DNA of 64,000 bases from contig NZ_CP060828.1 of assembly GCF_014489635.1 (NCBI RefSeq), positions 1,550,001-1,614,000 on the forward strand, given 5' to 3'. Origin of the DNA: Streptomyces roseirectus. Lineage in GTDB: Bacteria; Actinomycetota; Actinomycetes; Streptomycetales; Streptomycetaceae. This document shows, piece after piece, positions 46,486-62,463 of the stretch (its first letter is position 1; each line of letters starts with the position of its first letter). The notes beneath the pieces are model-generated. The model saw only the letters and a list, made by a program, of their open reading frames with translations, had not been told where the DNA came from and searched no databases. The position numbers and the translations under genes are program-made.

Positions 46486-48183
46486 GTGCGTGCGAAGAAG
46501 GAGCGGCCGGAGGAGTTCGCCGAGGGCCGGCGCGCGGCGGGCGCGGCCCGGGAGCCCGGCGTGGGCGCGCCCCTCGTGCCCGGGGCGCTCTCCCCGCGGG
46601 CGCTCGCGCCGATGCAGCGGGCCGTCGGCAACGCGGCCGTCGCGCGGATGATCCAGCGGCAGCGCGACGAGGGCGGACAGGACGAGCGGCCCGTGCAGCG
46701 GTCGTCGGTGCCCGACGTGCTGCGCTCGCCCGGCCGGCCGCTGGCGGAGCCGGTGCGGGCGGACATGGAGCGGCGGCTCGGGGCGGACTTCTCCGAGGTG
46801 CGGGTGCACGACGGCGCGGCCGCGCAGCGGTCGGCCACGGAGGTCGGGGCGCGGGCGTACACGTCCGGGAACCATGTGGTGATCGGGGCGGGCGGCGGGG
46901 ACCGGCACACGCTCGCGCACGAGCTGGTGCACGTGGTGCAGCAGCGTTCGGGCCCTGTGTCGGGGACGGACAACGGGGCGGGGCTGAGCGTGTCCGACCC
47001 GTCGGACCGGTTCGAGCGGGAGGCGGAGTCGACCGCGCGCCGCGTGATGTCCGGGTCCGCCCCGGCACCGGCTCGGCCGGGCACGGTTCAGCGGGCGGCG
47101 GGAACGGCCGTCCAGCGCATGGTGAACGAGGAGGACGCCGCGCCCGCGCAGGCCGTCGACCCGCTGACGGACTTCGCCGCCGCCCGGTACGACCCCGGCG
47201 CCGAACAACCCATCACGCCCGGCGCCCGCGCGGACGTGCTCCGGCAGATCGCGTGGGAGGACCACTGGGCGCCCATCTCGGCGGTGTGCGCGAAGTACCA
47301 CTACACGATCGCCGTGCGCGAGACCGGCGAGTACTCGATCAAGCGCATCGCGGAGGGCGCCAAGCCCAAGCCGCACACCATCCTGGAGAAGTCGATCAAG
47401 CCCGGCTCGGTGAAGAAGGAGTACGGCCCGGGGAGCAAGCGGCCGGACCAGGACCTCGGCCAGGTGCTGGCCTGGCTCGACCGGGAGGACCTGTCCGGAT
47501 TCGTCGGGCACTGGGGAGCGGAAGGGCTGATGGGGGTGCGTATCGACCACCCGTCCCAGGAGGTCCTGGACCTGGGGATCGTGCGGACGGGGGCCCGTGG
47601 CGAGCAGTACGTGCCGATGACGGTGCTGGAGCCGGGCGGCGGCCAGGCGCTGACCGCCCTGAAGTCCCTCGGCAACTGGAAGACGTACCTCTACACCGGC
47701 GACTACGACCTGCACGAGGCGTACTCCACGATGGGTGCCATGGCCGGCGGCGGCCAGATCGCCGAGGCGTCGACCGAGAAGGTCAACCTGCTCAACCGGC
47801 TCAACGCCGGGGTCGCCGCCCACTCCGACACCCCGGTGCGGCGCGAGGGCACGGCCGTCATGGGCGAGCACGGGCTGCACATGGAGAACTCCGCGTACGC
47901 CATGTTCCAGCACGGCGACCAGGCCACGTACCGGATGAACCAGTACCTGGAGGCGCAGGCCGCCGAGCTGAAGCCGCTGGTCGCGCCGCTGGTGAAGGCG
48001 GTGGCCACGGAGAGCGACGAGCCCATGGGGTGGTGCCGGTGGGGTCAGTGGTACGTCACCCGCAACAAGGCCGAGCACAAGGCGCTACGGGAGAAGTGGG
48101 GACTGACCCCACCCAACACATGGAGCGACGACGCGGTGCGGCGCACGGAGCAGGGCGACTACCGGACGGCCAAGTACATCTGA
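46486..48183 (+). CDS. eCIS-core (DUF4157) protein with C-terminal edema-factor/ExoY-like cyclase domain
   Basis: 565 residues, no signal peptide. Residues 40-60 (MQRAVGNAAVARMIQRQ) and 85-153 form the DUF4157 module (PLAEPVRADMERRLGADF, VRVHDG, HTLAHELVHVVQQR with HExxH at 145-149) found in contractile-injection-system cargo and polymorphic toxins. After a VQR-rich linker, residues about 245-540 resemble calmodulin/actin-activated toxin cyclases. Visible are a Lys-rich segment (EKSIKPGSVKK, 301-311), GHWGAEGLMG (341-350), TGDYDLH (404-410, paired Asp406/Asp408 like TADYDLF in edema factor), LLNRLNAGV (435-443) and MGEHGLHMEN (459-468, like NHGTEQDN). It would make cAMP or another cyclic nucleotide in a target cell. 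Similarity is by eye; GTG start with GAGGTGGGGG upstream. It stands alone. Confidence 0.75.
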   Translation: MRAKKERPEEFAEGRRAAGAAREPGVGAPLVPGALSPRALAPMQRAVGNAAVARMIQRQRDEGGQDERPVQRSSVPDVLRSPGRPLAEPVRADMERRLGADFSEVRVHDGAAAQRSATEVGARAYTSGNHVVIGAGGGDRHTLAHELVHVVQQRSGPVSGTDNGAGLSVSDPSDRFEREAESTARRVMSGSAPAPARPGTVQRAAGTAVQRMVNEEDAAPAQAVDPLTDFAAARYDPGAEQPITPGARADVLRQIAWEDHWAPISAVCAKYHYTIAVRETGEYSIKRIAEGAKPKPHTILEKSIKPGSVKKEYGPGSKRPDQDLGQVLAWLDREDLSGFVGHWGAEGLMGVRIDHPSQEVLDLGIVRTGARGEQYVPMTVLEPGGGQALTALKSLGNWKTYLYTGDYDLHEAYSTMGAMAGGGQIAEASTEKVNLLNRLNAGVAAHSDTPVRREGTAVMGEHGLHMENSAYAMFQHGDQATYRMNQYLEAQAAELKPLVAPLVKAVATESDEPMGWCRWGQWYVTRNKAEHKALREKWGLTPPNTWSDDAVRRTEQGDYRTAKYI

Positions 48184-48213: not shown

Positions 48214-50235
48214 CTACTCCGTGACGATCGCCGGGTCGCTCACGCCCGGCCGCCCGTTCTCCACGTGTCCGGCGAACCGGCGCAGGAACGTGGACGAGGC
48301 GTGCGAGGTGACCGTCAGGTCGTACCAGCGGTGCCCCTTGCCGGTTCCGACCGTGCGCTTGAGGACGGCGTGCGGGCGGAGCTTCACCGTGGTCGTCCGG
48401 GAGCGGTAGGCGTCGGTGACGCGGAGTTCGACCGTCTGCCCGGACGTGTTGGTGAAGGTCAGTTCGACGTGGTCGCCGACGTGGCGGGCGACGACCTCAG
48501 GGCCGGCGTGCGCGGTCTCCCCCTTGAAGGCGCGCAGGAAACCGGCCGGTCCGTGGACCGTGAGGTCGTAGGAGGCGCCCGTGAAGGTGTCGGAGATCTT
48601 CTTGCCGGCCTCGGTCGTGTAGCTCCGGGGAGTGACGCCGGCCGTGGTGACGAGGAACGCGCCCCCGGCGTGCGCCCCTGAGGCGAACGTCAGGGCCAGC
48701 GCGCCAGAAGAGACCTTCGCGTCGACGCTGGGCGCGTACCTGAGCGGCCTGGTCGGACGGTGGCCGCGCTCCTGCCGGGGCAGCGCGGGATGGGCCGGCG
48801 GGACCGGGACGTAGTCGGGGTGCCGTTCGCGGTCGGCGGGCTCGTACGCGGCCGTCGGCGGCAGCTCGACCGCGCGGACGTCCTTGCGGGAGAAGTCGAA
48901 CGCGGCCGTCAGGTCGCCGCAGACCGCGCGGCGCCACGGCGAGATGTTCGGCTCGTGGACGCCGAACCGGCGCTCCATGAAGCGGATCACCGAGGTGTGG
49001 TCGAAGGTCTCGGAGCAGACGTAACCGCCCTTGCTCCAGGGCGAGACGACGATCATCGGGACGCGCTGGCCGAGCCCGTAGGGGCCGGCGACGTGGCCCG
49101 CCGCGTCGCCGGTGAACAGGTCGGGGCCGGTCGGGGCCGTGGAGCGGCCCTGCTCGGGGAAGGGCGGCACGACGTGGTCGAAGAAGCCGTCGTTCTCGTC
49201 GTAGGTGATGAACAGGGCCGTCTTCGCCCACACCTCGGGGTTCGCGGTGAGCGCGTCGATGACCTGGGAGATGTACCAGGCGCCGTAGTTCGCGGGCCAG
49301 TTGGGGTGCTCGGTGAACGCCTCGGGGGCGGCGATCCAGGAGATCTGCGGCAGCTTGCCCGCCTTGACGTCGGCCTTGAGCTGCGCGAAGTAGCTCTCGC
49401 CGGCCTTCGCGTTCGTACCCGTACGGGCCTTCTCGTACAGGGCGTCGCCGGGCTTGGCGTTCTGGTACTGGGTGAAGTACAGGAGGGAGTTGTCGCCGTA
49501 GTTGCCCCGGTAGGCGTCCTGGATCCAGCCCCAGCCGCCCGCCTTGTCGAGGCCGTCGCCGGTGTCCTGGTAGATCTTCCAGGAGACGCCCGCCTTCTCC
49601 AGGCGCTCCGGGTACGTCGTCCAAGAGTAGCCCGCCTCGTCGTTGCCGAGGACCGGGCCGCCGCCCTTGCCGTCGTTTCCGGTGTAACCCGTCCACAGGT
49701 AGTACCGGTTGGGGTCGGTCGAGCCGATGAACGAGCAGTGGTAGGCGTCGCAGATGGTGAACGAGTCGGCGAGCGCGTAGTGGAACGGTATGTCGCCGCG
49801 CTCCAGGTACGCCATCGTCGTCGAGCCCTTCGAGGGCACCCACTTGTCGTACTTGCCGCCGTCGAACGCGGCGTGGCCGTCGTTCCAGCCGTGCGGGAGG
49901 TCCTGGACGAAGGCGAGGCCCAGGTCGTCGTGGTCGGGGCGGAAGGGCAGGACGTCCTTCTTGCCGTCCGACTGGTACCACACCGGCTTGCCGTCCTGGC
50001 GGGTGACGACCGGACGCGGGTCGCCGAAGCCGCGCACGCCGCGCATCCGCCCGAAGTAGTGGTCGAAGGAGCGGTTCTCCTGCATCAGGACGACGATGTG
50101 CTCGACGTCCTCGATCGACCCCGTCCGATGGTTCGCGGGCAGCGCCGCCGCCCGCTCGATGCTCCCGGACAGCGCGGTGAACGCCGTGGTGGCACCCGCG
50201 AGTTGGAGAAAGCGGCGCCGGTTGACCTCTGACAT
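48214..50235 (-). CDS. plcC: Tat-exported phosphocholine-specific phospholipase C
   Basis: 673 residues. The twin-arginine signal NRRRFLQLAGATTAFTAL is followed by the alkaline-phosphatase-superfamily catalytic domain of AcpA/PlcC enzymes (DVEHIVVLMQENRSFDHYFG with metal and nucleophile residues, DSFTICDAYHCSFIGSTDPN, FITYDENDGFFDHVVPP, FDHTSVIRFMERRFG). Two C-terminal DUF756 beta domains follow (about 490-575 and 585-665). It releases phosphocholine from phosphatidylcholine or sphingomyelin outside the cell, for phosphate gain or membrane attack. It corresponds in my memory to SCO6691. It converges on the DUF4157 gene. Confidence 0.92.
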   Translation of the reverse strand: MSEVNRRRFLQLAGATTAFTALSGSIERAAALPANHRTGSIEDVEHIVVLMQENRSFDHYFGRMRGVRGFGDPRPVVTRQDGKPVWYQSDGKKDVLPFRPDHDDLGLAFVQDLPHGWNDGHAAFDGGKYDKWVPSKGSTTMAYLERGDIPFHYALADSFTICDAYHCSFIGSTDPNRYYLWTGYTGNDGKGGGPVLGNDEAGYSWTTYPERLEKAGVSWKIYQDTGDGLDKAGGWGWIQDAYRGNYGDNSLLYFTQYQNAKPGDALYEKARTGTNAKAGESYFAQLKADVKAGKLPQISWIAAPEAFTEHPNWPANYGAWYISQVIDALTANPEVWAKTALFITYDENDGFFDHVVPPFPEQGRSTAPTGPDLFTGDAAGHVAGPYGLGQRVPMIVVSPWSKGGYVCSETFDHTSVIRFMERRFGVHEPNISPWRRAVCGDLTAAFDFSRKDVRAVELPPTAAYEPADRERHPDYVPVPPAHPALPRQERGHRPTRPLRYAPSVDAKVSSGALALTFASGAHAGGAFLVTTAGVTPRSYTTEAGKKISDTFTGASYDLTVHGPAGFLRAFKGETAHAGPEVVARHVGDHVELTFTNTSGQTVELRVTDAYRSRTTTVKLRPHAVLKRTVGTGKGHRWYDLTVTSHASSTFLRRFAGHVENGRPGVSDPAIVTE

Positions 50236-50432: not shown

Positions 50433-52526
50433 TCACCGGCCCAGGAGGAGGATCAGGACGACGAAGAGGGCGAGCAGGCCCAGGCCGAACGTGACGATCT
50501 TCGCGGTGTCGTCCGGCGGCGAGGGGGTGTGGCGGGCGGGGTCCGGGAGGGGCGGGCCGGGGTGCGGGAGCGGTGGGCCGGGGTGCGGGGGTGCGGTCGG
50601 GACGGCGGGCGGGGGCGCGAACTCGCCCACGGGGCAGGCCGGTTCGCCGTCCGCCTCGGGGAGGATCCCCTCCCACGGCCGGTGCCTCGCCAGGTCACGC
50701 CACAGTGGGGCGGGGAGGTCGGGCGCGGGGTCCTGTTCGAACAGGGCGCGGCGCCAGAACTCGCGGACGTCCGGGTGCTGCGGCCGTTCCAGCGTGTCGA
50801 GGATCCGGCCCACCGCTCCCGCCAGTTCGGGGCGGCGCAGGTAGGGCAGTACCGCCCAGCGGAACATCCGTACCGCGCCGGCGGCTCCCCCGTGCCGGTC
50901 GTTCTTCTCGGCGAGGGCCGTGCGCCAGGCGTGGCGCAGGTACACGCCGTGGCCGATCACCGTCGCCGCGAGGGTGAGGGCCTCGCCGAACGTCCGCCAC
51001 CGCGTCCGCCGCTCCAGCGCCCACAGGATCGCGCGCGCGGCCTCGGGGGGCAGATCGGTGCGGGCGAGTTCGGCGCAGAGGGTGTGGTCGGGGAGGCGGT
51101 CGAGGTGCGTCAGGGCGGCGAGGAGGGGTTTCGGGTCCTGCCGGGTGACGTGCTGCCGCCACCACTCCGGGGAGGAGTACTTGGTGACACGGCCCAGCCT
51201 GCGGGTGCGGTAGGGGAGCTGGCGTTCGGGGAGGGAGGGGGGTGCGGAGGGCGCGGGCGGCGGGGCGCCGGTGTCCTCGGCGGGGGTACCGGAGTCGTAC
51301 GGGTCGTAGGGGTCGTACGGGTCGTAGGACCTGGGGAGGGGAGGGAGGGGCGGCAGGAGAGGGAGGGGGGCGACGGGGTCGTACGCGGCGACGGGGGGCA
51401 GGGGGTCGGGCGGGGGTGACAGGGGTTGCACGGGGGCTACGGGTACTACGGGCTCGGCCTCGGGCAAGGACACCGGCTCAGGCACGGACACAGGCACCGG
51501 CTCAGGCACCACCGGCGCTACGGGTACTACGGGTACTACGGGTACTACGGGTACTACGGGATCGTCCTCCCCCACAGACACCCGCTCCGACGCCACCACC
51601 CCCGCACCCCCACCACCCCCCAACCCCAAAATCAACGCATCCAACCGCTCCCCCACCCCCACCCCCACCCCCGGCTCCCCCGGCCCCGGACACCCCCGCA
51701 GCACCTCACCCACCACCCCACCCCGCCCCGGCTCCGCGAGGAACAGCTCCACCAGCCGCGCGGCGACTTCGCGGGCCTCGTCACGGGGCGCGTCGCCGAA
51801 GGTGATCCGCTCCACGTCGGACCCTCCGACGGCCGACCGGGGCCACTCGGGCACGCACACGAGCCGCAGCCGCGCGTCGTCCTGGGTGTCGAAGGTGGCG
51901 TACGTGAGGAAGGCGTCCCCCAGCCACTCCCCCAACATCGCGCACACCCCCCAGATCAGCAGGGGCGCGTAGTTGACGTTCTCCAGGTCGTGGATGTCGC
52001 GCCGCAGGAACGTCAGCCGGCGCTGCGGCGTGCGGATGAGCTGGGCGACGGCCGCTTCGAGCGGCGTCCGGATCGCGGCCACGCCCTCCAGATAGACGGG
52101 CAGCGCCTCGTCGAACCGGCGCCGCACGGCGTCCGCGGGGAACGGGTCGAGCGTCCCGGACGCCGTGTCGGGCACGCCCAGCCACTCCCAGTGCCGCATG
52201 GCCAGCGTGACGGAGTCGCGCGCGCTGAGCAGCGCGGGGTCGCCGACGAGGGCGCGCGAGACGGTCGACTCCCGCCCGCGCGCGTCCAGCGAGGGCCTGC
52301 GGTGGACGACGACGGCGTCCCCGGTCGCGGGGTCGAAGCACCGCACGACGCTGGGCCGGCGGCTCTTCGCGCCCTCGACGCGCAGCAACGGCGCGAGCAG
52401 GGCCCGCAGTTCCTCGGCGCGCGCCTCGCCGCAGGAGTGCGCGGCGGCGGCGATGCCGGTGACGTACCGGTCGCGGTTGCCCTCCCAGCGGAACAGCAGC
52501 CGGTGGACCTCAGCGGAGTCCGCCAC
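50433..52526 (-). CDS. GAP1-like (GTPase-associated protein 1) protein, C-terminal membrane anchor
   Basis: 697 residues. The N-terminal 270 residues (VHRLLFRWEGNRDRYVTG, MRHWEWLGVPDTAS, PQRRLTFLRRDIHDLENVNY) match my recollection of the GAP1-N2 and GAP1-M domains named in NTP-dependent conflict systems. A long Val-Pro/Pro/Tyr-Asp low-complexity linker (about 280-455, with VVP and YDP repeats) leads to a helical domain (YSSPEWWRQHVTRQDPK, ILWALERRTRWRTFGEA) and one C-terminal helix (IVTFGLGLLALFVVLILLLG, 677-696). No enzyme motif is seen. The GTG start lies 17 nt inside the end of the GTPase gene, so it is translated after the GTPase and probably partners it at the membrane. Last gene of the operon. 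Confidence 0.7.
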   Translation of the reverse strand: MADSAEVHRLLFRWEGNRDRYVTGIAAAAHSCGEARAEELRALLAPLLRVEGAKSRRPSVVRCFDPATGDAVVVHRRPSLDARGRESTVSRALVGDPALLSARDSVTLAMRHWEWLGVPDTASGTLDPFPADAVRRRFDEALPVYLEGVAAIRTPLEAAVAQLIRTPQRRLTFLRRDIHDLENVNYAPLLIWGVCAMLGEWLGDAFLTYATFDTQDDARLRLVCVPEWPRSAVGGSDVERITFGDAPRDEAREVAARLVELFLAEPGRGGVVGEVLRGCPGPGEPGVGVGVGERLDALILGLGGGGGAGVVASERVSVGEDDPVVPVVPVVPVVPVAPVVPEPVPVSVPEPVSLPEAEPVVPVAPVQPLSPPPDPLPPVAAYDPVAPLPLLPPLPPLPRSYDPYDPYDPYDSGTPAEDTGAPPPAPSAPPSLPERQLPYRTRRLGRVTKYSSPEWWRQHVTRQDPKPLLAALTHLDRLPDHTLCAELARTDLPPEAARAILWALERRTRWRTFGEALTLAATVIGHGVYLRHAWRTALAEKNDRHGGAAGAVRMFRWAVLPYLRRPELAGAVGRILDTLERPQHPDVREFWRRALFEQDPAPDLPAPLWRDLARHRPWEGILPEADGEPACPVGEFAPPPAVPTAPPHPGPPLPHPGPPLPDPARHTPSPPDDTAKIVTFGLGLLALFVVLILLLGR
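51519..51560. repeat. 9-bp tandem repeat (tactacggg), about 4.7 copies
   Basis: A microsatellite in the GAP1-like gene encoding consecutive VVP units on the minus strand; a further copy lies near 51428-51446. The same nonamer occurs as coding sequence on the plus strand of the DUF2510 gene (about 41718-41755). Length may vary by slippage without frameshift. Confidence 0.65.
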
Positions 52527-53598
52527 CGCTCACCCCTCCCGCGCCGCTCTCCTTGGTGAACATCCCGCACATGGCGAGGATCGAGACGAGCGGCCCCAGC
52601 ACCCGCCGGGAGCGCACCCCTTGGGGGAAGTGGCTGTCGCGGGCGCTGCCCCCGGTCGCGGACGCGAAGTGCAGGGTGCAGCGCAGGGCGCTGTCGAAGG
52701 GCCGCAGCCAGCCGGGGTCGGCGTGGCGGCGCAGGAAGGCGTAGGCGTCGCGGCTCTCCTCGCGCAGCGCGCGCGGGTCGTGGGCGGAGTCCTGGGCGAG
52801 CCAGCGGTCGACGGGCGGTTCGAAGCGCAGCAGGTCGGCCTTGCCGACGACGAGGGCGCAGGGGATGTCGAGGTAGCCGTCGCGCAGCGGGAGCCGGTCG
52901 AGGACGGTCTCGAACGCCGGGTCGCTGCCGGTGAGTTCGAGTCCGGCGTCCTTGCGGGGTTCGTCGAGGTGGGGCAGGCGCAGGGCGAGCAGCGGGTCGA
53001 CGACGAAGACGAGGGCGTCGACGCCGAGGAGGAAGCGCAGCAGGCTGTCGGTGCGGATCAGGTCCTCGCCGCCGAGGTCGAAGAAGGCGACGGGCCGTAC
53101 CTGCCGGTCGGCGCCGGTGAGCAGCAGCGCTTCGACGAACTCGGCGAACGACGTCTGTCCGGTGCCCTCCAACTGCCGTCCCTGGCGCAGCCGGACGACG
53201 CGTTCACGGACGAACGCGGCGTGGTCGGCGGGGTTCACGGACTGCCAGCGCACGTCGTAGGGGTCGAGGCCGCCGCCGATGACCTCGGCGACCATCTGGG
53301 TGAGGAGGTGGCTCTTGCCGCTGCCGGAGGCGCCGATCATGGCGATGGTCAGGGGGCGGCCGTGGGTGAGGTAGGGGACGGGGATGAAGTGGGGTGCGCC
53401 CGACTCGCCGCCGGCGCACGCCTGGAACGCGGAGCGCAGGATGTCGGCGCGGCGCAGGGGGCTGACGAGGTCGGCGGGGTCGAGGCGTTCGTACTGCTGG
53501 GTCTCGGTGCGGCGGTGCAGGCGTGCCTCGTCGTAGTGGACGTGTTCGAGGCAGTAGGGGCACAGGATCCGTTCGTGGGTGCCGGCGGGCGCGGTCAT
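52510..53598 (-). CDS. P-loop GTPase with N-terminal Cys-pair (double-GTPase-2-like)
   Basis: 362 residues. It begins with CPYCLEH (Cys13, Cys16), a reduced zinc-ribbon head, then a P-loop domain: Walker A IGASGSGKSHLLT (89-100), Walker B-like VAFFDLGGEDL, hydrophobic ALVFVVDPL, and VVGKADLL in the position of the base-specificity NKxD motif. These traits fit the TRAFAC-type GTPases linked to GAP1 proteins and the distinct GTPase that accompanies FtsZ-like/vWA clusters. It would act as a GTP switch for the tubulin-like and GAP1-like partners. Its ATG overlaps the kinase-like stop by one base. Confidence 0.78.
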   Translation of the reverse strand: MTAPAGTHERILCPYCLEHVHYDEARLHRRTETQQYERLDPADLVSPLRRADILRSAFQACAGGESGAPHFIPVPYLTHGRPLTIAMIGASGSGKSHLLTQMVAEVIGGGLDPYDVRWQSVNPADHAAFVRERVVRLRQGRQLEGTGQTSFAEFVEALLLTGADRQVRPVAFFDLGGEDLIRTDSLLRFLLGVDALVFVVDPLLALRLPHLDEPRKDAGLELTGSDPAFETVLDRLPLRDGYLDIPCALVVGKADLLRFEPPVDRWLAQDSAHDPRALREESRDAYAFLRRHADPGWLRPFDSALRCTLHFASATGGSARDSHFPQGVRSRRVLGPLVSILAMCGMFTKESGAGGVSGGGLR

Positions 53599-54578
53599 CA
53601 GTACGCCCTCCCGCCGAACCAGCCCCGGCGGCGGGGCTGTTGGTCACCGGTCACCGACCCGGCGCCAGAGCCGGAGCCGTGGCCGTGGCCGCTGCCGGGG
53701 TCCTGGGGGACGACGCCGGCCGCCCTGCGTTTGCGTTCCATCGCGCGGTCGTACTCCTGCCGGTGGGGTTCGAGGGGGTCGGGGCGGGCCTCGGCGAGCG
53801 CGGCCGGGTCGGGTCCGGGCATCAACCGGGCGAGGACGCGGGCGGGTTCGGGGCGGGCCTCGGCGAACGGGGCGAAGGCGTCGCCGAGTTCGAGGGAGCG
53901 GTAGGCGGCGAGGTCGGCGGGCGGTCCGTCGGGGTCACCGGGGTGTCCGGCGGCGAGCTGGTAGACGATCTGGGCGGCGCTCCACAGCGCGTCGCGCGCG
54001 TCGGTGCGGCCGGTGCCGCGCCGCTGTTCGGGGGCGGCGTAGGGGGGTGTCCCGGTGGGCAGCCGGGGCCGGCCGAGGGGGACGGCGGAGGCGAGGTCCC
54101 ACACCTGGACGTGTTTGCCGTCCCAGCGCACGGCCGCCGGCACGAGCCCCTGGTGGACGAGGCCGACGCTCTCCAGCAGCCGGACGGCGAGGACGAGGTC
54201 GCGTTCCACGGTGCGCTGTTCGGTGGTGGGGATGCCGTAGGAGAGGCGGGCGGCGCCTTCGCCGCGCGGGGCCTCGTAGAGGAGGAACGGCTCGTCGGCG
54301 TCCAGGTCGTGGCCGACGATCGCCGGGAACAGGCTGCGGTAGGGGGTGTCGCCGTAGGCGCGGTGGACGGCGAGGGCGGCGCGGGCCTCGGCTTCGAGGC
54401 GGGGCGGGCCGGTCTCGGGGTCGGCTGCGGTGAGGCGGACGGCGGGGCGGCCGTCGAGGGCGACGTCGTGGGCGGTGAGCGGGGGCGGGACGGTGCGGCG
54501 GCGGGGTCCGCCGAGGGTGGCGGCCTCGGTGCGGCGGGCGCCCTGCGGGGTGAGGAAGGACAGGCGGGTCTCGGTCAC
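53598..54578 (-). CDS. Degenerate protein kinase-like protein
   Basis: 326 residues with the overall order of a Ser/Thr kinase but altered catalysis. LLESVGLVHQGLVPAAVRWD stands where HRDLKPxN should be (no Asp), VWDLASAV stands for DFG, and GTPPYAAPEQRRG is a good activation-segment APE motif followed by DALWSAAQIVYQLAAG. No clear glycine loop is visible. It is therefore probably a pseudokinase or atypical kinase serving as scaffold. The C-terminus is a Gly/Ser/His and basic tail. The GTG at 54578 overlaps the upstream stop by 4 nt (GTGA); open frame further upstream is antisense or off-frame to the membrane protein gene and not part of it. Confidence 0.75.
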   Translation of the reverse strand: MTETRLSFLTPQGARRTEAATLGGPRRRTVPPPLTAHDVALDGRPAVRLTAADPETGPPRLEAEARAALAVHRAYGDTPYRSLFPAIVGHDLDADEPFLLYEAPRGEGAARLSYGIPTTEQRTVERDLVLAVRLLESVGLVHQGLVPAAVRWDGKHVQVWDLASAVPLGRPRLPTGTPPYAAPEQRRGTGRTDARDALWSAAQIVYQLAAGHPGDPDGPPADLAAYRSLELGDAFAPFAEARPEPARVLARLMPGPDPAALAEARPDPLEPHRQEYDRAMERKRRAAGVVPQDPGSGHGHGSGSGAGSVTGDQQPRRRGWFGGRAY

Positions 54579-56806
54579 CAGGCGTCCTCGGGGTCGGCGG
54601 CGGTGCGGCGGACGGTGTGGACGACGCCGCGGCGCAGGGGCAGCAGGCGCAGGGTGCCGCTGTAGCGGCCGGGGAAGAGGACGGGCTGGTCGGCGGCCCA
54701 GGCGGGGCGGCGCGCGGTGTGCGGGGCGAAGGAGATCCGGGCGGTGTGGCCGGGGTCCTTGCTGAGGAGCGCGGACTGTTCGGGGGTGACGAGTTCGACG
54801 GGGACGGCGCCGTCGTCGTCGAGGTCGTGGGCGGGGATGCCGAGCAGGGCCTCGGTGGCGGGCCGGGGACTGCCCGGGCGGTGCGGGGAGGGGGCGACGA
54901 TGCCGTGCCGGTTCAGGTGGCGGCGGGCGGCGTCGAAGAGGGCGCGGACGTCGGCGCGGCCGCGTCCGGGGGTCCAGCGCAGGGCGGTGCGGACGGCGGC
55001 GTCGAGGTCGTCGCGCAGGGTGTCGACCAGCTCCGGCCCGCCTTCGCCGGCTTCGCGGCCGAGCCAGCGGGGGACGTCCGTGTCGGCGGAGGCGTCGGCG
55101 GGTTCCGGGGGGACGAGGCGCAGGCCCTCGCCGAGGCTGTCGTAGGCGCCCTGGCGGGGGCGGGGGATGCCGGCGCACTCGCGGGCGGTGTCGGCGGCGG
55201 CGCGCAGGGTCCCGGCGGTGGCGCGGGCGAGGTCGGCGAGGTCGCGGCGCAGTCCGGCGGCCCACCAGCGGCGGTGGGCGCCCTCGGCGAGGAGCGTGTC
55301 GAGGGCGGTGAGGATGCGCGCGGCGTCGTCGGCGCCCGAGTCCCGCCACCACGCGTCCCGGGCCGCGCGCCGCGCCCTGCGCGCCAGGTGCCAGGCGGCG
55401 AGCAGGCCGCAGGCCAGGGCGGGGACGGGCGTCCAGGCGGGCGGGGTGAGCGCGCGGGCGGCGAGGAGGCCGGCGGCGGCGCCGGGCAGGAACGCGGCGC
55501 TCGCGAGGAGGCCGGCCCTGAGGTGGCGCAGGCCCGCCCAGAGCGCGGCGAGCACCAGCGCCGCCGCGAGCGGGACGAGTCCGGCGAAGGCGCCCGCGAG
55601 GACGGCGAGCGGGAGGTTCGGGCGGACGGTGAAGGGGTGGTGCGGGCCGAGCCGGTGGACGCGGTCGGGCGGGCACAGCCGGTCGGCGTCGGCGGCGACC
55701 TCGGTGCCCGTGGCGGGGACGACCTCCTCGCCGAGGACGACGAGGCGGGCGGCGACCGCGCGCAACGGGGCGCCCTGGTCGAGGAGTTGTTCGGTCGAGT
55801 CGCGCAGGGCGCGGCCGAGTTCGTCGAGGGTGACGGTGGCGGGCGCGACCTCCACCTCCCCGGCCGGCGGCTCCTCGTGCCGCAGCGTCTCGACGATCAG
55901 GGCCCGGTGGCGTTCCAGCGCCTCGGCGGCCTCGCCCAGCGCGCCGGCCGCCGCCCCGCCCCGGCGGGCCCGGTCGAGGGCGGCGAGGGCGCGGGCGCAG
56001 CTCGCGCGGGAGCCCTCCAGCCGGCCGCCGGGGACCATCCGGACGTCGGCCGCGCCCGCCGCGAGGAGGTCGCCGACGTCCAGCCTGCCGCCGGGGAAGG
56101 GGTGTTCGGCGTCCCCGGCGAGGCGGTGCAGGGCGTCGGTCCAGGCCCGGTCGCGGGCGGCCGGGGACAGGTCGTGCTCCAGGAAGCGGACGGCGGGGAC
56201 GGCGGCGGAGTCGGCGAGTCCGGCGAGCTTGCCGAGGACGTCGTCGAAGAGGCCGCACAGGACGTCGACGAGGACGGACAGGGCGCGGGGGTCGTCCGGG
56301 GTGACGTCGGGGTCGCCCGCCGTGCGCGCCGCCCTGAGGTCGCCGGCCCACAGCAGGCCGCAGGACTCGCCCCGGAGGGCGGCGGGGCGGGTGAGGCGGG
56401 GTCCCTGGTGGGTGGGCCGGGACGGGGCATGGCCCTCGTCGGCGGGGGTTCCCCACGCGTCACCGTCCCCGGCGCCGGTCCCCCAGGTGTCCCACGTCTC
56501 CACCGGCCCGGCGAGCGGGTCCCACGTCTCTGCGCGGGCGGCGCGTTCCGCCGGCGGGGTCAGTTCCCCGACGGCCAGGGCGAGGACGGAGGTCCGCTTG
56601 CCGTAGGCGATGACGCGTTCGTAGACGGCGTGCCGCAGGTCGAGCCCGGCGGGGGTGTCGACGAGGAGGAACCGGTAGTGGCCGTCGGCGGGTTCGGGCC
56701 GGCCTGCCTCGCGCAGGCGTTCCTGGACGGCGGCCCGCAGTCCGTCGCGGCCGGCGAGTTCGGCGGTGCCCCGGCGCAGGTCCAGGACGATGACGGGGCT
56801 CGTCAT
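54575..56806 (-). CDS. Membrane protein of unknown function in the tubulin-like operon
   Basis: 743 residues, no recognised family. The N-terminus (VIVLDLRRGTAELAGRDGLRAAV) looks like a soluble alpha/beta domain; residues about 310-375 are helical and charged; a cluster of three to four hydrophobic helices spans about 397-475 (LAVLAGAFAGLVPLAAALVL and following). A C-terminal soluble part of about 260 residues ends PGRYSGTLRLLPLRRGVVHT. It likely anchors the complex in the membrane. It overlaps the tubulin-like gene by 4 nt (ATGA) and the kinase-like gene by 4 nt. Confidence 0.7.
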   Translation of the reverse strand: MTSPVIVLDLRRGTAELAGRDGLRAAVQERLREAGRPEPADGHYRFLLVDTPAGLDLRHAVYERVIAYGKRTSVLALAVGELTPPAERAARAETWDPLAGPVETWDTWGTGAGDGDAWGTPADEGHAPSRPTHQGPRLTRPAALRGESCGLLWAGDLRAARTAGDPDVTPDDPRALSVLVDVLCGLFDDVLGKLAGLADSAAVPAVRFLEHDLSPAARDRAWTDALHRLAGDAEHPFPGGRLDVGDLLAAGAADVRMVPGGRLEGSRASCARALAALDRARRGGAAAGALGEAAEALERHRALIVETLRHEEPPAGEVEVAPATVTLDELGRALRDSTEQLLDQGAPLRAVAARLVVLGEEVVPATGTEVAADADRLCPPDRVHRLGPHHPFTVRPNLPLAVLAGAFAGLVPLAAALVLAALWAGLRHLRAGLLASAAFLPGAAAGLLAARALTPPAWTPVPALACGLLAAWHLARRARRAARDAWWRDSGADDAARILTALDTLLAEGAHRRWWAAGLRRDLADLARATAGTLRAAADTARECAGIPRPRQGAYDSLGEGLRLVPPEPADASADTDVPRWLGREAGEGGPELVDTLRDDLDAAVRTALRWTPGRGRADVRALFDAARRHLNRHGIVAPSPHRPGSPRPATEALLGIPAHDLDDDGAVPVELVTPEQSALLSKDPGHTARISFAPHTARRPAWAADQPVLFPGRYSGTLRLLPLRRGVVHTVRRTAADPEDAW

Positions 56807-59800
56807 TCGACGTCCTTCCAGGGGTCGCCGGCCTCGCCCGCGCCGGCCCTGCGGGCGGGGTGCTCGGCGCGGGCCGGGGTGGGGGCGGGGGCGGCGGGGG
56901 TGTCGGGTTCGTCGCCGGGCCAGCCGTCGGATCCGGCGGCGGGGCCGGCGAAGGGCGGCAGGGGGCGTTCGCGGGGACGCTCGCCGTCAGCCCGTTCGAC
57001 CCAGGGAAACTCGCCCTGTGCGCGCGGTTCCTGACGGGGTGTCACATCGAGTTCGAGGAGGGCGGCGCGCAGGGAGCGCAGGGTGGGGGCCACGGCGTTC
57101 TTGTCGGAGAAGGGGGTGTCGAGGGCGGCGGGCAGGAGCTGGGTCCAGAACTCCAGGAGGGAGTGCGCCCATTCGGTGGAGGTGTGCACGGAGCGCGCCA
57201 ACCGGTCCTGGATCAGGGCGATCTGACGGGGCGCCAGTTCCTCGACGAGGTGGACGTAGAGCGGGTGCGGGCCCTTGCCGGCGGCGGCGAGGCCGTTCGC
57301 GCTGTGTTCCATGAGGGCCTGGCAGTACGTCTCGACGACGGGGTCCTCGGTGAGCAGGGCGATCTGTTCGTAGGCGTGCAGGAGGCGGGCCCAGCCGGAG
57401 ACGCCGCCCCGGCGGTGGTCGCCGAGGCGCAGTTCGATGCCGGGGAGGTCGGTGGTGACGTCGTCGGGAAGGGTGCTGTGCAGGCGGACGAGGACCTTGC
57501 CGGGTTCGTCGTCGGTGCCCTCGACGACCTCGACCTGACCCTTCCACAGGGCGCACAGCAGCCGGTGCAGGATCTCGCGGCGGTCCTCGGCGGTCGCGGC
57601 GAGCCATTCGCCGCCGCGGCCCAGGCGCTGGCGCCAGTCGAGGTAGTCGGCGTCGACCTCGGTCTCGCGGGCCGCCGCCCAGCGCTTGAGGACCTTGCGG
57701 ACCTCGGGCACCTCGGTGAGGCTCATCTCGCGGCGGAACAGCACGACGGTGATCGAGTCCGTCTCGACGCCGTTGAACTCGGTGGAGCCGCGCGGCAGCG
57801 ACAGGTGCTTGCGCAGGTAGTCCTCGACGGTGTCCTTGGCCGACGAACGCGGGTACACCACCAGGACCTTGAGCGGCCCGCCGCCCTCGGGCACGAAGCC
57901 GTGCGGGATCAGCCCGGCGATCTTGAACCGGAACTGGTCGAGGGCGGCCTTGCCGACGGTGTCGGCGGCGGTGGAGACCCCGGCCGCCGCCTCCAGCAGG
58001 ACGGCCATGGACGGCAGGAGCGGCTTCTCGTCGTGCAACGTGCCGCTCTGCGCGAAGAGTTGCTTGATCCGCTGCTCGATCGCCGCCTTCACGGGCGCGA
58101 TCGCCGCGTCCAGGTTGCGGCGGGCGATCGTGCGGGCCGCCTGCCACTGGTCGGCGCCGACCAGCGCGCGCACCAGCGCCGCCTCGTCGTCGCTGTCCCG
58201 CAGGTTCTCGCGTTTGGTGAGGCGTTCGCACAGGTCGGCGTAGAAATCGGTGAGGTTGTGCTGCGGGGGCAGCAGGTAGGAGACGCCGGTGCGGTCGTCG
58301 TACAGCTCCATCACCTGCGCCTTGTAGGCGCGCGGCTCCTCCTCGCGGTGCTTGTGGAACGCCTCGACGAGGGCGGCGATCTCGGCGGTGAGGGCGGTGG
58401 CCTTGGGGCGCCAGCGCTGCTCCTCCCTGCGCCACGCCTCGTGCCAGATCGCCTTGGTGCGGGCCACGTACCAGGTGTCCTGCTCGGCCTCGGTCCGCCG
58501 CCTCAGCTCCTCGTGCCGGGAGCGGGAGAGGCGGGCGGCGATGCCGTCCTTGAACTTCGGCACGGCCGGCGCCAGCAGGACCCGGTGCTCGCCGCCGCCG
58601 GGTTCGCGGCCCCGGTTCTCCAGCATGCCGAGCACACCCTGCCGGGTGACCGGGTCGGGGTCGCCGGGGACGCCCTTGACGACGCGTTCGACCTGGAAGG
58701 GGTCCATGGTGCGCAGGGCGCGCTCCAGGGCCGTCTGCGGCGAGAACTGCTCGGCGAGCACGGGGACGCGGCGCGCGACCCGGCGGCGCAGGTCCTCCAG
58801 CGTCGCCTGCATCTCCTTGAGCCGGGTGGCGAGGGCGTCCTCGATGCCGGCGCCGCCGCGCTGGGTGGGGCGCGCCTCGGGCGGCGGGAGGGGGTCGCGG
58901 TTCCACAGCTCTTCGAGCCCGGCGTCGGCGAACATGCGGCGCACCGTGCCGGCGTACTCGTGGCTGTGCTGCGCGGAGGCGTCCGCGAGCCGGCCCACGC
59001 CGTGCGCGAGCAGGCGCGCCGACACCAGGTCGGCGAGGGGTTCCAGGGGGACGGTCATGGCGGCGACGAGACTCGTGGAGACGCCCCGGTGCCCGATGCC
59101 GGACTTGGCGCGGATACGACGCTTGGCGTCGGAGTTGATGAAACTGGAGGCGAACGTCTGGTGCTCGTCGTCCCGTTGGGGTGCGTCACCCAGCTCCGCG
59201 CCGATCAGCGACATGATGAGCGACACCATCGAGCGGCGCAGGTCGTCCGGGCGGATCCCGGCGGTGCGGCTGAACAGGAACGCCGTCGGCATGACCCCGG
59301 TGTCCAGGCGCACCACACGGCCGTGCGGGTAGCGGATCGCGGTGCCGGAGGCGTGGTCGACGTCGCCGATGACGTCGTCCGCGACGGGCGCGTTCTGCTC
59401 GTCGACCAGCCGGAACAGGTCCACGACGGCCCGCGCGGCGTTGAGTTCGGCGTCCCGGCCGCCGCCCTTGGCGAGCGGGAACGCGGACGGCATGACGACG
59501 AGCGGGTAGATGCGGGCGCCGCTGAAGTTCTTCTCCTTGAACGCCTGCCCGATGAAGTGCAGGTAGTCGAGGAAGATCCCGGTGCCGGTGCCGCCCGCGA
59601 CGGAGAACGCGACGAACACGTCGCACCCGGAGATCGGGCCGCCGTCGAGCCGGCTCAGCTCGCCACCGGAGCGGCCGATGATGTCGATGGCCTGCTGCAA
59701 CGGGCCCATCACGGGCGTCAGGTCGTCGCGCAGGAGCGTCCCGAAGAGGGCGGCGCGGCCGACCGTCGGGAGCTGGCCCGCGCCGTTGCGCAGCGGGGTG

Positions 59801-60180
59801 ATCCGGGGTTCGGTGGCCTGCGGGGGCAGCCAGTCGCGGACCTCGCGCGGGATCGCGGCGCGCAGTTCGCGCGTCACGCTCGGGGAGCTGTCGTAGCCCG
59901 GCAGCAGGTCGTGGGTGGCGCGGGCGGTGCGCGCGTACGCCGCCTGGAGCGCGGGCTCCACGCTCAGGTGCGGCAGCCGGCCGAGTTCGGCCTCGCTGTA
60001 GTCGGCGTACACGAACTGGAGGCATTCGGGCAGCTGGTAGCGCTGGGTGATGCCCACGGAGGCGAGGGCGGTGCCGTCGGGGCCGCACAGCGCGGCCCGC
60101 AGGCGGCGCTCCAGCTCGGCGCCGACGAGCCCTCCGGTGCCGCCGAGGCCGACGAAGAGCATCGGCTGGTTGATCTGCAT
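56803..60180 (-). CDS. Giant tubulin/FtsZ-like GTPase (Tubulin_2 family)
   Basis: 1125 residues, about three times FtsZ. The N-terminal 300 residues form a tubulin-like nucleotide fold: VGLGGTGGLVG (10-20) is the first glycine loop, VAFSVAGGTGTGIFLD (190-205) is the tubulin signature G-box, and GGRDAELNAARAVVDL lies where FtsZ/tubulin have the N-x2 nucleotide contact region. The remaining 800 residues are largely helical and charged, with no known domain. The family (FtsZl-2/Tubulin_2) was proposed by Makarova and Koonin (2010, from memory) to drive membrane remodelling together with a vWA protein and a distinct GTPase, both present here. ATG with GGAAGG site; 63 nt after the vWA gene. Confidence 0.85.
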   Translation of the reverse strand: MQINQPMLFVGLGGTGGLVGAELERRLRAALCGPDGTALASVGITQRYQLPECLQFVYADYSEAELGRLPHLSVEPALQAAYARTARATHDLLPGYDSSPSVTRELRAAIPREVRDWLPPQATEPRITPLRNGAGQLPTVGRAALFGTLLRDDLTPVMGPLQQAIDIIGRSGGELSRLDGGPISGCDVFVAFSVAGGTGTGIFLDYLHFIGQAFKEKNFSGARIYPLVVMPSAFPLAKGGGRDAELNAARAVVDLFRLVDEQNAPVADDVIGDVDHASGTAIRYPHGRVVRLDTGVMPTAFLFSRTAGIRPDDLRRSMVSLIMSLIGAELGDAPQRDDEHQTFASSFINSDAKRRIRAKSGIGHRGVSTSLVAAMTVPLEPLADLVSARLLAHGVGRLADASAQHSHEYAGTVRRMFADAGLEELWNRDPLPPPEARPTQRGGAGIEDALATRLKEMQATLEDLRRRVARRVPVLAEQFSPQTALERALRTMDPFQVERVVKGVPGDPDPVTRQGVLGMLENRGREPGGGEHRVLLAPAVPKFKDGIAARLSRSRHEELRRRTEAEQDTWYVARTKAIWHEAWRREEQRWRPKATALTAEIAALVEAFHKHREEEPRAYKAQVMELYDDRTGVSYLLPPQHNLTDFYADLCERLTKRENLRDSDDEAALVRALVGADQWQAARTIARRNLDAAIAPVKAAIEQRIKQLFAQSGTLHDEKPLLPSMAVLLEAAAGVSTAADTVGKAALDQFRFKIAGLIPHGFVPEGGGPLKVLVVYPRSSAKDTVEDYLRKHLSLPRGSTEFNGVETDSITVVLFRREMSLTEVPEVRKVLKRWAAARETEVDADYLDWRQRLGRGGEWLAATAEDRREILHRLLCALWKGQVEVVEGTDDEPGKVLVRLHSTLPDDVTTDLPGIELRLGDHRRGGVSGWARLLHAYEQIALLTEDPVVETYCQALMEHSANGLAAAGKGPHPLYVHLVEELAPRQIALIQDRLARSVHTSTEWAHSLLEFWTQLLPAALDTPFSDKNAVAPTLRSLRAALLELDVTPRQEPRAQGEFPWVERADGERPRERPLPPFAGPAAGSDGWPGDEPDTPAAPAPTPARAEHPARRAGAGEAGDPWKDVE

Positions 60181-60243
60181 GGGGTGCCTTCCAGCGGTCG
60201 GTTCACGGATCGGGGCGGCAAGTGCGCAGGCCGGGCGGCGGGT

Positions 60244-62463
60244 TCACAGGTCGGGGTGGCCGGCCTCGGACGCGTACGGCGACCAGGTGTCCGGCGGGGG
60301 CGTCGCGGCGACGGCGTCGACGACCTTCAGGACCAGGTCGTCGCCCGCGCTCAGCCCCTCGCCGGGCCGTACGGTCACCGGTTCGGCGGTGCCACGCCGC
60401 AGTTCGGCGTCCCCGGCGGGCGTGCGGCGCATGGCCCACTCCCCCTGGTCGGCGCGGCGCACGCGCGGACTGTCGCCCTCCTCCACGATGTCGAACCGGT
60501 ACCAGCGGCCCCGCCCGTCGAGCACCGGGTGCACGGCCAGTTCACGGCCCCACGGGTCCTCCAGGACCAGCGTCCCGCGCGGCCTGACCGCCGCCCTGCG
60601 GCGCAGGAAGAGAAGGACGAGAACACCGCCGGCGGCGAGTACGAACACGGCGACTCCCGCGACGATCCAGGGCAGTCGGCTCTTCTCGACGCTGACGGCG
60701 ACCGGGTCGAGGAGCTGGTCGACGAGGACCGCGCCGCTCTCGTCGGTGACGACGATCTTGCCGCCGAGGGAGGTGGGTTCAGCGCGGACGGGGAAGCCTA
60801 GGCGGTCGCCGACGCCGAGGGTGACGGTGAACTCCCGCGCCCCGGCTCCGGGTTGGACGGTGATGTGGCGCGGGGTGAGGGTCAGGCCGGTCGCCTCGGT
60901 GCCGGCGAACGCGAGGGTCAGGGTGTGGGGTCTGGTGTCCTTGTTGGAGACGGTCAGCTTCGCGTCGTGCGCCTGCCCCGGGTGCAGGCTCGCGCCGCCG
61001 AGCGCGAGGGCCGCCTCCAGGGACTTGCCGGGGGTGAAGACGGCGGCGGGCTGGCTGCGGACGTCCGGCCGCAGCCCGACGGCGGACACGCGGGACGTGA
61101 ACATGAGGGCGCCGGACGCTTGTTGAGGGACCGTCACCTTGCCGGTGAACCGGCCTCGTCCGTCGCCGGTGAGGCGGATCGGCACCGGCGTGCCGATGCC
61201 CTTGCCGGTGAGGGTGCCCGTGACGGTGATGCCGCGCAGGTCGCGCGGGGCCGGCCGGGTCTCCTCGCGGGTCAGGATCGGCACCCGCATCTCGACCTCG
61301 CTGCCGGGGGCGGGCGCGTACTCGCTGAGCGAGATCGTGGAGCGCACCGCGCCGTGCCACAGGACGCTCACCGTGGCCGTCCGGTCCCGGTGCCCCTCGG
61401 GAGCGGCCAGCTCGACCCGCCAACTCCCGGGCAGCGGGCGGGTGATGCGCAGCGACTCGGTGGCCCGGCCCTGCCCGGTGAACGTGTACGTCGAGTCGTC
61501 GTCCCGCGCGCCGGGCTCGATCCGGCGCCCGCGCGGGTCGTAGTAGGCGGCGGTGACCGCCGGGTCGCCCTTCTCGACGACGATGGTGCCCTCGGTGGCC
61601 AGCGGCGAGATCCGGACGGCGAGTTCGCCCGGCGGACGCCGCGAGCCGCCCTCGTCGCGGTAGAGGCAGCGGGACGTGGCGAACGCGTCCTGGAGGGCGC
61701 CGCCGATCTTCTCGGGGCTGTCCGCCATGTGCGGCCTGGGGCGGGCGTCCGGCAGGTGCGCGTCGCAGCCCGCCTGGTAGCCGGCGCCCGCCATCCGCCC
61801 GAGCGCCTTCTCGTCGGCCTCGCCGAAGCCGAGCGGCCAGATCTGCACCTTCGCGGCGGCGGCGTCGGCGAGCACGTCCGCGAGGTCCTTGCGCGCCGCC
61901 TCCCGGGCCGAACGCTCGTCCAGGTTCCGGTACTTGAGGCTGCCCCGCACGTCCAGGACGCCGTCCGTCATCAGGAACAGGACGCGCGGGTCGGTGTCGG
62001 GGGCGGTGCTCAGGTCGGTGACCGCCTGCCGGATCACCTCGATGAAGTCCGTCCCGGCGCCCTCGTGCTGCTCGCGCCGGCGCAGGCGCTGCGCGCAGTC
62101 CGGGGTCTTCTCCCGGCCCAGCGCGTCGAGGGAGCGGGGCGGGCAGACCTTGTCGACGGCCGTCTGGCCCGGCTCGTCGGCGCTCGCGAAGCCCAGCACC
62201 TCCAGCGTGGAGCGGCTGGACGGCTCGCTCACCGCGATCGTGCCGACGGCTTCCCGCTCGCGCTCCACGTCACCGGCGCCGAGGCTGGCGGACTGGTCGA
62301 CGGCGACGACGTAGTGGACGGGCCGGTCGGTGCTCTCGTCCGCTGCGGCCGTCGGTGTGAGGGCGGCCGTGCTCATCACCGCCGCCGTGGCGAACAGGGC
62401 CCCCAGCCGGGTGTACCGGCCCCTGGAACTGGTCAAGTCTCGGTGCTCCCCTGAACTCGTCAC
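60244..62463 (-). CDS. Exported von Willebrand A domain protein with membrane anchor
   Basis: 739 residues: a signal peptide (LGALFATAAVMSTAALTPTAAA), a vWA domain at about 48-260 with an intact MIDAS (DQSAS at 56-60, a Thr in GAGTDF, LMTDGVLD), several Ig/beta-sandwich segments, one transmembrane helix (about 592-614, LPWIVAGVAVFVLAAGGVLVLL) and a cytoplasmic tail of about 120 residues. The fold faces outward and could sense or bind surface ligands and pass the signal to the cytoplasmic tubulin/GTPase partners. First gene of the six-gene unit. The start is GTG at 62463; TTG at 62436 with a GGGGAG upstream is an alternative. Confidence 0.8.
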   Translation of the reverse strand: MTSSGEHRDLTSSRGRYTRLGALFATAAVMSTAALTPTAAADESTDRPVHYVVAVDQSASLGAGDVEREREAVGTIAVSEPSSRSTLEVLGFASADEPGQTAVDKVCPPRSLDALGREKTPDCAQRLRRREQHEGAGTDFIEVIRQAVTDLSTAPDTDPRVLFLMTDGVLDVRGSLKYRNLDERSAREAARKDLADVLADAAAAKVQIWPLGFGEADEKALGRMAGAGYQAGCDAHLPDARPRPHMADSPEKIGGALQDAFATSRCLYRDEGGSRRPPGELAVRISPLATEGTIVVEKGDPAVTAAYYDPRGRRIEPGARDDDSTYTFTGQGRATESLRITRPLPGSWRVELAAPEGHRDRTATVSVLWHGAVRSTISLSEYAPAPGSEVEMRVPILTREETRPAPRDLRGITVTGTLTGKGIGTPVPIRLTGDGRGRFTGKVTVPQQASGALMFTSRVSAVGLRPDVRSQPAAVFTPGKSLEAALALGGASLHPGQAHDAKLTVSNKDTRPHTLTLAFAGTEATGLTLTPRHITVQPGAGAREFTVTLGVGDRLGFPVRAEPTSLGGKIVVTDESGAVLVDQLLDPVAVSVEKSRLPWIVAGVAVFVLAAGGVLVLLFLRRRAAVRPRGTLVLEDPWGRELAVHPVLDGRGRWYRFDIVEEGDSPRVRRADQGEWAMRRTPAGDAELRRGTAEPVTVRPGEGLSAGDDLVLKVVDAVAATPPPDTWSPYASEAGHPDL

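Follow-up and report, generated by a model that had tools for sequence, protein, structure and literature searches.

Two publications have predicted systems of the kind considered here. Makarova and Koonin (2010; PMC2875224) described FtsZl1 operons, for which membrane remodelling was the favoured role, and Kaur (2020; PMC7159879) predicted tubulin-type GAP1-N2/DO-GTPase2 conflict systems, the actinobacterial theme having FNIII-HRDC and FNIII-vWA partner genes. The role of the FtsZl1/Tubulin_2 proteins has been open since the 2010 description, no experimental role for such systems was found in searches of the open-access literature, and to our knowledge the tubulin-type DO-GTPase/GAP1 systems are a known kind that has been predicted and not examined experimentally. 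The locus studied here is a six-gene cassette of Streptomyces roseirectus, located in a window of 64,000 nucleotides (the whole stretch analysed, positions 1550001–1614000 of a single-contig 9.95 Mb genome). A first-pass annotation had described it as a candidate membrane-remodelling or conflict system whose partners had been predicted before, and this earlier prediction was found in both papers. On balance, we favour reading the cassette as a membrane-tied GTPase-tubulin conflict system, probably anti-phage, that is a variant of the tubulin-containing DO-GTPase/GAP1 systems.

The make-up of the cassette and its upstream module was read from the sequence and is listed in Table 1. The six genes lie on the minus strand and span 50433–62463. 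The vWA and tubulin genes are separated by 63 nt and the subsequent junctions overlap by 4, 4, 1 and 17 nt, in agreement with the annotated gap and overlaps of 1–17 nt. The gene of the kinase-like protein begins with a GTG at 54578 that overlaps the upstream stop codon, and is nested within a spurious 952-aa open reading frame.

Table 1. Cassette genes and adjoining upstream genes, in window coordinates.
Feature	Position	Strand	Basis
vWA protein, 739 aa	60244-62463	-	VWA 8.8e-4 (below Pfam cut-off), metal-ion-dependent adhesion site (MIDAS), transmembrane helix
Tubulin_2 / FtsZ-like protein, 1125 aa	56803-60180	-	PF13809 2.7e-62, G-box FSVAGGTGTG
743-aa membrane protein, unnamed family	54575-56806	-	model tubulin/FtsZ-like with inserted helical membrane region
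Predicted pseudokinase, 326 aa	53598-54578	-	Pkinase 0.0037 (below cut-off); no HRD/DFG
P-loop GTPase, DO-GTPase2 type, 362 aa	52510-53598	-	G1, Walker B, G4, CPxC
Divergent GAP1-like membrane-anchored protein, 697 aa	50433-52526	-	profile-profile GAP1-N2; longin/DENN-like model of residues 1-300
MkoB-N-like protein, 365 aa	62645-63742	-	6.3e-15; 181 nt upstream of vWA gene
3' end of gene for MkoA-like SF1 helicase, 950 aa	63739-64000	-	MkoA 1.3e-107

The 1125-aa protein matched PF13809 with 211.5 bits against a cut-off of 27 and contains the GGTGxG loop, the G-box reading FSVAGGTGTG from residue 192 and SVAGGTGTG from residue 193, which supports its assignment to the tubulin superfamily. No match was obtained against PDB sequences. 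The tubulins of the closest named relatives, Streptomyces niveiscabiei and S. acidiscabies, are 90–91% identical to it. The vWA protein contains the DxSxS motif of the MIDAS at residue 56 and a single transmembrane helix at 596–624, with a C-terminal part beyond. A vWA partner is present, and no HRDC or FNIII match to Pfam was obtained among the core proteins.

The kinase-like protein of the window has HQG and WDL at the HRD and DFG positions. The motif count covered 45 readable tubulin-linked rows, some genomes appearing twice and one further row being unreadable; HRD was retained in none (L049 has PRD) and DFG in none (four keep DFx). The reported lack of both motifs was confirmed, and by its sequence the protein is a pseudokinase. 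At 24 of 29 further loci the kinase-like part and the GTPase are contained in a single open reading frame, a fusion that the first-pass annotation overlooked. The GTPase motifs are conserved, with G1 GASGSGKS, a Walker B FFDLGGE bearing a Glu, and G4 GKAD; the Walker B pattern FFD[LV]xGE was found in 12/12 family members. The annotated Cys pair corresponds to a CPxC motif in a zinc-ribbon-like N-terminus, also present in 12/12 members, and is accompanied by an invariant C61. Direct scans of Pfam, NCBIfam and PADLOC gave no family name for the GTPase, and its matches among PDB sequences were confined to the P-loop stretches of NTPases, Arl13-type ones among them. The window GTPase did not match the DO-GTPase2 family PF19993 at E≤1. 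Nine of the 12 family members did so (best 8e-8), with the L105 and L026 members exceeding the cut-off of 27 bits and P0045 reaching 26.9 bits, and the DO-GTPase2-type assignment is supported at the level of these relatives.

The last protein of the cassette, previously termed GAP1-like and membrane-anchored, has a C-terminal hydrophobic segment at 673–697. Direct scans of Pfam, NCBIfam and PADLOC gave it no family name, the Pfam GAP1 models (PF20013/PF20014 included) matched 0/11 members of its family, and nothing meaningful was found among PDB sequences. The GAP1-like claim holds at the profile-profile level, but not by the Pfam models. Canonical GAP1-N2 is present in 32/119 genomes of the order, and a canonical profile was built from 30 such proteins. 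Comparison with hhalign gave a probability of 79%, with a collinear alignment and a score of 45 against decoys at ≤21, when nine divergent members and one extra canonical protein were used; earlier runs had given 30% with the first set and 70% after three divergent members were added, and comparison with full-length canonical proteins gave 47.5%. Since the plain profile of the GAP-like family retrieves no canonical GAP1, the relation is remote. The structure model of residues 1–300 resembles longin/DENN folds of GTPase regulators. In the loci reaching that far the GAP-like gene comes after the GTPase gene, and in L026:2088-4037 and P0045 the GTPase and a GAP-like domain are joined in one protein. 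PF20013 had no match anywhere in the S. roseirectus genome and no separate canonical GAP1-N2 system was found there, which sets the cassette apart from the actinobacterial tubulin theme in the literature.

The family of the 743-aa membrane protein was absent from the Pfam, NCBIfam and PADLOC scans and its 20 further database members are each named hypothetical, consistent with its description as unnamed. The four membrane helices ascribed to it are plausible and unproved, as the hydropathy scan gave two adjoining segments (397–429 and 431–450) while the structure model places helices between 398 and 490. The best match of this model was tubulin/FtsZ, although no Foldseek match under 1e-3 was obtained for it or for the GAP-like model, and sequence homology to the cassette tubulin was looked for and not found. 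From the model, the 743-aa protein is possibly a second tubulin fold into which a helical membrane region is inserted, a possibility that the first-pass annotation overlooked.

The cassette products were compared by tblastn with 13 loci (L014–L026), comprising three named relatives and ten other genomes above the Tubulin_2 cut-off among 61 searched; L014 and L025 are interrupted by contig ends. The gene order was kept in 11/11 loci of sufficient length, nine of these by plain tblastn, which placed all six genes in order at L015–L022 and L024. At L023 a different query and a profile were what revealed the GAP gene, and at L026 both the membrane gene (best domain 78.8 bits) and the GAP-like gene are in place and diverged. 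Among 392 genomes of the genus, Tubulin_2 was found in 66, the GTPase in 67 and both in 64, after five genomes whose GTPase matches were all weak (G066, G109, G162, G312, G389; E >1e-30) were dropped from the 72 genomes with a GTPase. In 59 of the 64 the two genes are on one contig and strand, 5.4–8.5 kb apart, and in the other five on separate contigs. The conserved order and co-occurrence are far more than chance would give, and the genes proved to be co-conserved, 64 of the 66 Tubulin_2 genomes also containing the GTPase.

At the class level Tubulin_2 was found in 20/296 genomes, including S. roseirectus and three congeners. From 11 of the 16 such genomes outside the genus, loci were fetched (L103–L113), of which L103–L107 and L113 have this cassette, to the extent that their contigs cover it. 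L108 has a canonical PF20013/PF20014 GAP1 alongside a tubulin unmatched by the tubulin profile, and by its sequence probably represents the published Kaur tubulin kind; the tubulins of L109 and L110 are of this other kind. L111 and L112, where gene calling was unproductive, were left out. Separately, second Tubulin_2 genes outside the cassette were seen in other multigene neighbourhoods at L066–L069 (G250, G244, G090, G153). By eye, the genes around them encode trypsin-like, PPWRSF-motif and hydrolase-like proteins, a set reminiscent of the MoxR-type systems described in Kaur 2020.

The genes that precede the vWA gene in S. roseirectus form a module resembling the Mokosh system. The MkoB-like protein covers positions 7–123 only of the 610-position MkoB model, and the MkoA-like helicase gene runs past the window end (L114:1740-4592); a third gene on the same strand encodes a 525-aa protein with PNP_UDP_1 and kinase-like parts. 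The same three genes were found in S. acidiscabies (L015), Streptomyces sp. YS415 (L016) and G242. The usual upstream genes of the genus are different, encoding a CRP-like protein (Crp), a class III cyclase-like protein (Cyc), UpX, UpY and PycTM. Cassettes could be assessed in 61 of the 64 genus genomes, since in G209, G290 and G391 the sequence stops too close to the tubulin gene: UpX and UpY were found in 55, PycTM in 52, the Mokosh-like module in two, and none of the modelled upstream genes in four (G018, G245, G291, G406). The upstream module is on the cassette strand in 55/61, and the order Crp-Cyc-UpX-UpY-PycTM-vWA is consistent in 55 of the 56 loci with UpX and UpY, L024 included. Given the starts chosen, the gap between PycTM and vWA is 8 nt at L017 and L018. 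The upstream profiles were trained on L015–L025, L114, L116, L117 and L119, which match by construction, while L120–L177 are independent; Cyc in L117 and UpX/UpY in L117 and L119 were recovered by six-frame profile search.

Two PycTM members were scanned against Pfam, both above the cut-off, and the others were assigned by an in-house profile. Among proteins of known structure the cyclase profile matched class III cyclases (best 5.9e-7), and the single cyclase scanned (L021) matched no PADLOC PycC model. The cyclase family is not exclusive to the cassette, as some match occurs in 108/199 genomes; the 24 strongest matches are all in cassette genomes. Strong MkoB-like genes occur in 5/295 genomes, beside the cassette in two and without it in G141, G299 and G146. 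Outside the genus, seven loci (L171–L177) gave a single partial PNPkin-like match, and L024 has Cyc, UpX and UpY. By eye, UpX (L017:3061-5559) is ATPase-like with a degenerate, GTGR-like P-loop, and UpY (L021:5910-7022) may resemble an SPFH/band-7 domain.

In the three genomes with only the GTPase (G319, G326, G350) a kinase-GTPase-GAP trio is divergently transcribed from conflict genes, namely JAB, E1 (ThiF), EAD1-YukD-E2 and AAA genes, which match the Pfam FtsH-ternary (fvm) families. These neighbours were Pfam-scanned at L070 and L072, and L071 was read by its resemblance to L070. The trio GAPs score 92–116 bits with a profile built without them, and the trio kinases keep HRD and DFG in L070 and L071 and have lost both in L072.

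Comparison with the Kaur tubulin theme (PMC7159879) reveals shared features: one actinobacterial tubulin extended by another C-terminal part, a membrane vWA protein, a zinc-ribbon-like GTPase N-terminus, GAP1 after the GTPase, and transmembrane segments. The cassette differs in that the GAP has no PF20013/PF20014 match and the core no HRDC match; it moreover adds the pseudokinase (GTPase-fused in most of the loci tested), the 743-aa protein and the Pycsar-like or Mokosh-like upstream modules. With the FtsZl1 operons it has in common Tubulin_2 (the same as FtsZl1), a vWA protein, a GTPase, a protein kinase and unnamed membrane proteins. The words 'cyclase' and 'Streptomyces' are absent from the main text of PMC2875224, which does name a c-di-GMP phosphodiesterase as a neighbour in one planctomycete. 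Likeness to Pycsar (PMC11224242) consists of the PycTM-type gene in 52/61 cassettes and a class III cyclase-like and a CNBD protein in most; unlike in Pycsar, the CNBD sits on a CRP-like helix-turn-helix protein, and UpX, UpY and the six-gene core are additional. This module is not in the window's own cassette, where the MkoA-like SF1 helicase and the match to the MkoB N-terminus recall Mokosh (PADLOC models; PMC11291487), with the difference that the kinase-like part stands on a separate protein, fused to PNP_UDP_1, and that the MkoB-like protein is N-terminal only. The FtsH/Ubl ternary systems (PMC7159879) are adjoined by the divergent trios at L070–L072, which contain no tubulin and do not form a single operon with their divergently transcribed neighbours. 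What appears to be new, from sequences and models, is that the GAP family is divergent and its model longin/DENN-like, that pseudokinase and GTPase can be fused, that the unnamed membrane protein resembles tubulin in its model, and that upstream modules of anti-phage type differ between cassettes.

The choice between membrane remodelling and conflict, left open by the first-pass annotation, shifts towards conflict because the upstream module, which lies beyond the span annotated, resembles anti-phage parts. We infer a function and mechanism as follows. The upstream module would sense infection, either through a cyclic nucleotide or through nucleic acid detected by the helicase, and the signal would pass to a switch made of pseudokinase and GTPase, under the control, at the membrane, of the tail-anchored longin/DENN-like GAP1 protein. 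In its GTP-bound state the switch would free or recruit the Tubulin_2 protein, which may polymerise together with, or upon, the vWA anchor and the membrane-inserted 743-aa protein (tubulin-like, and itself lacking a GTP-binding loop), and the polymer would then remodel the membrane or seal a hyphal compartment, preventing the spread of infection. The earlier proposal that all products form one GTP-driven complex is still conjectural; contact of the kinase-like, GTPase and GAP-like parts is supported because these parts occur fused. A tentative extension, possible without being the likelier case, is an immune cytoskeleton in which a pseudokinase-coupled GTPase, itself controlled by a bacterial DENN-like regulator, triggers a two-tubulin membrane polymer, one tubulin binding GTP and the other membrane-inserted and without a GTP-binding loop, with cyclic-nucleotide or Mokosh-like helicase modules as interchangeable upstream alarms.

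Following the 2010 FtsZl1 proposal, the cassette could instead be a housekeeping or developmental machine that shapes hyphal membranes or septa, the CRP-like and cyclase proteins being ordinary cAMP-type regulators. The role favoured by Makarova and Koonin (PMC2875224), the hydrophobic anchor segments in three proteins and the CRP-like helix-turn-helix gene upstream of most cassettes are consistent with such a machine, but its spread is patchy (66/392), the upstream partner varies, with a Mokosh-like module in one clade, PycTM is a known effector type and the trio homologues adjoin Ubl/FtsH conflict genes; we regard this explanation as rather unlikely. The consistent order and shared strand of the upstream genes, the 8 nt gap that the chosen starts leave before vWA at L017 and L018, and the confinement of the strongest cyclase matches to cassette genomes argue against two independent systems that share a defence island, the core doing one job and the cyclase/PycTM or Mokosh-like module another. 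The four cassettes with neither module, the MkoB-like genes of cassette-free genomes and the widespread cyclase relatives are what such independence would give, and it is judged unlikely. A decayed or functionless remnant in S. roseirectus is very improbable: the upstream module here is unlike the majority form and the kinase-like protein is catalytically dead, but all six reading frames are unbroken and retain conserved motifs, and the pseudokinase condition is common to the family.

The link to differing upstream modules of anti-phage type opens the role of the FtsZl1/Tubulin_2 proteins to a direct test, phage challenge of laboratory Streptomyces. If the models are true, a DENN/longin-like regulator with a bacterial GTPase and a cryptic membrane tubulin would be relevant to cytoskeletal immunity and to how eukaryote-like GTPase regulation arose.

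Several further genes were seen near cassettes. In G242 a TIR-like protein (PADLOC 5e-5) is encoded at L115:11509-13814, a few kb downstream of the cassette, and its gene adjoins an AAA/MoxR-like gene (by eye). A gene for a CHAT and STAND-type NTPase protein (L033:3689-5437) is on the same strand downstream of the GAP-like gene in G041. In the window a gene for a phosphocholine-specific phospholipase C (TIGR03396, 816 bits) is located at 48214–50235 on the minus strand, 197 nt downstream of the GAP gene, and such a gene also adjoins the cassette in L015. A 565-aa protein encoded at 46486–48183 on the plus strand bears a PMQRAVGNAAVARM stretch, which we take to recall domains associated with eCIS and polymorphic toxins.
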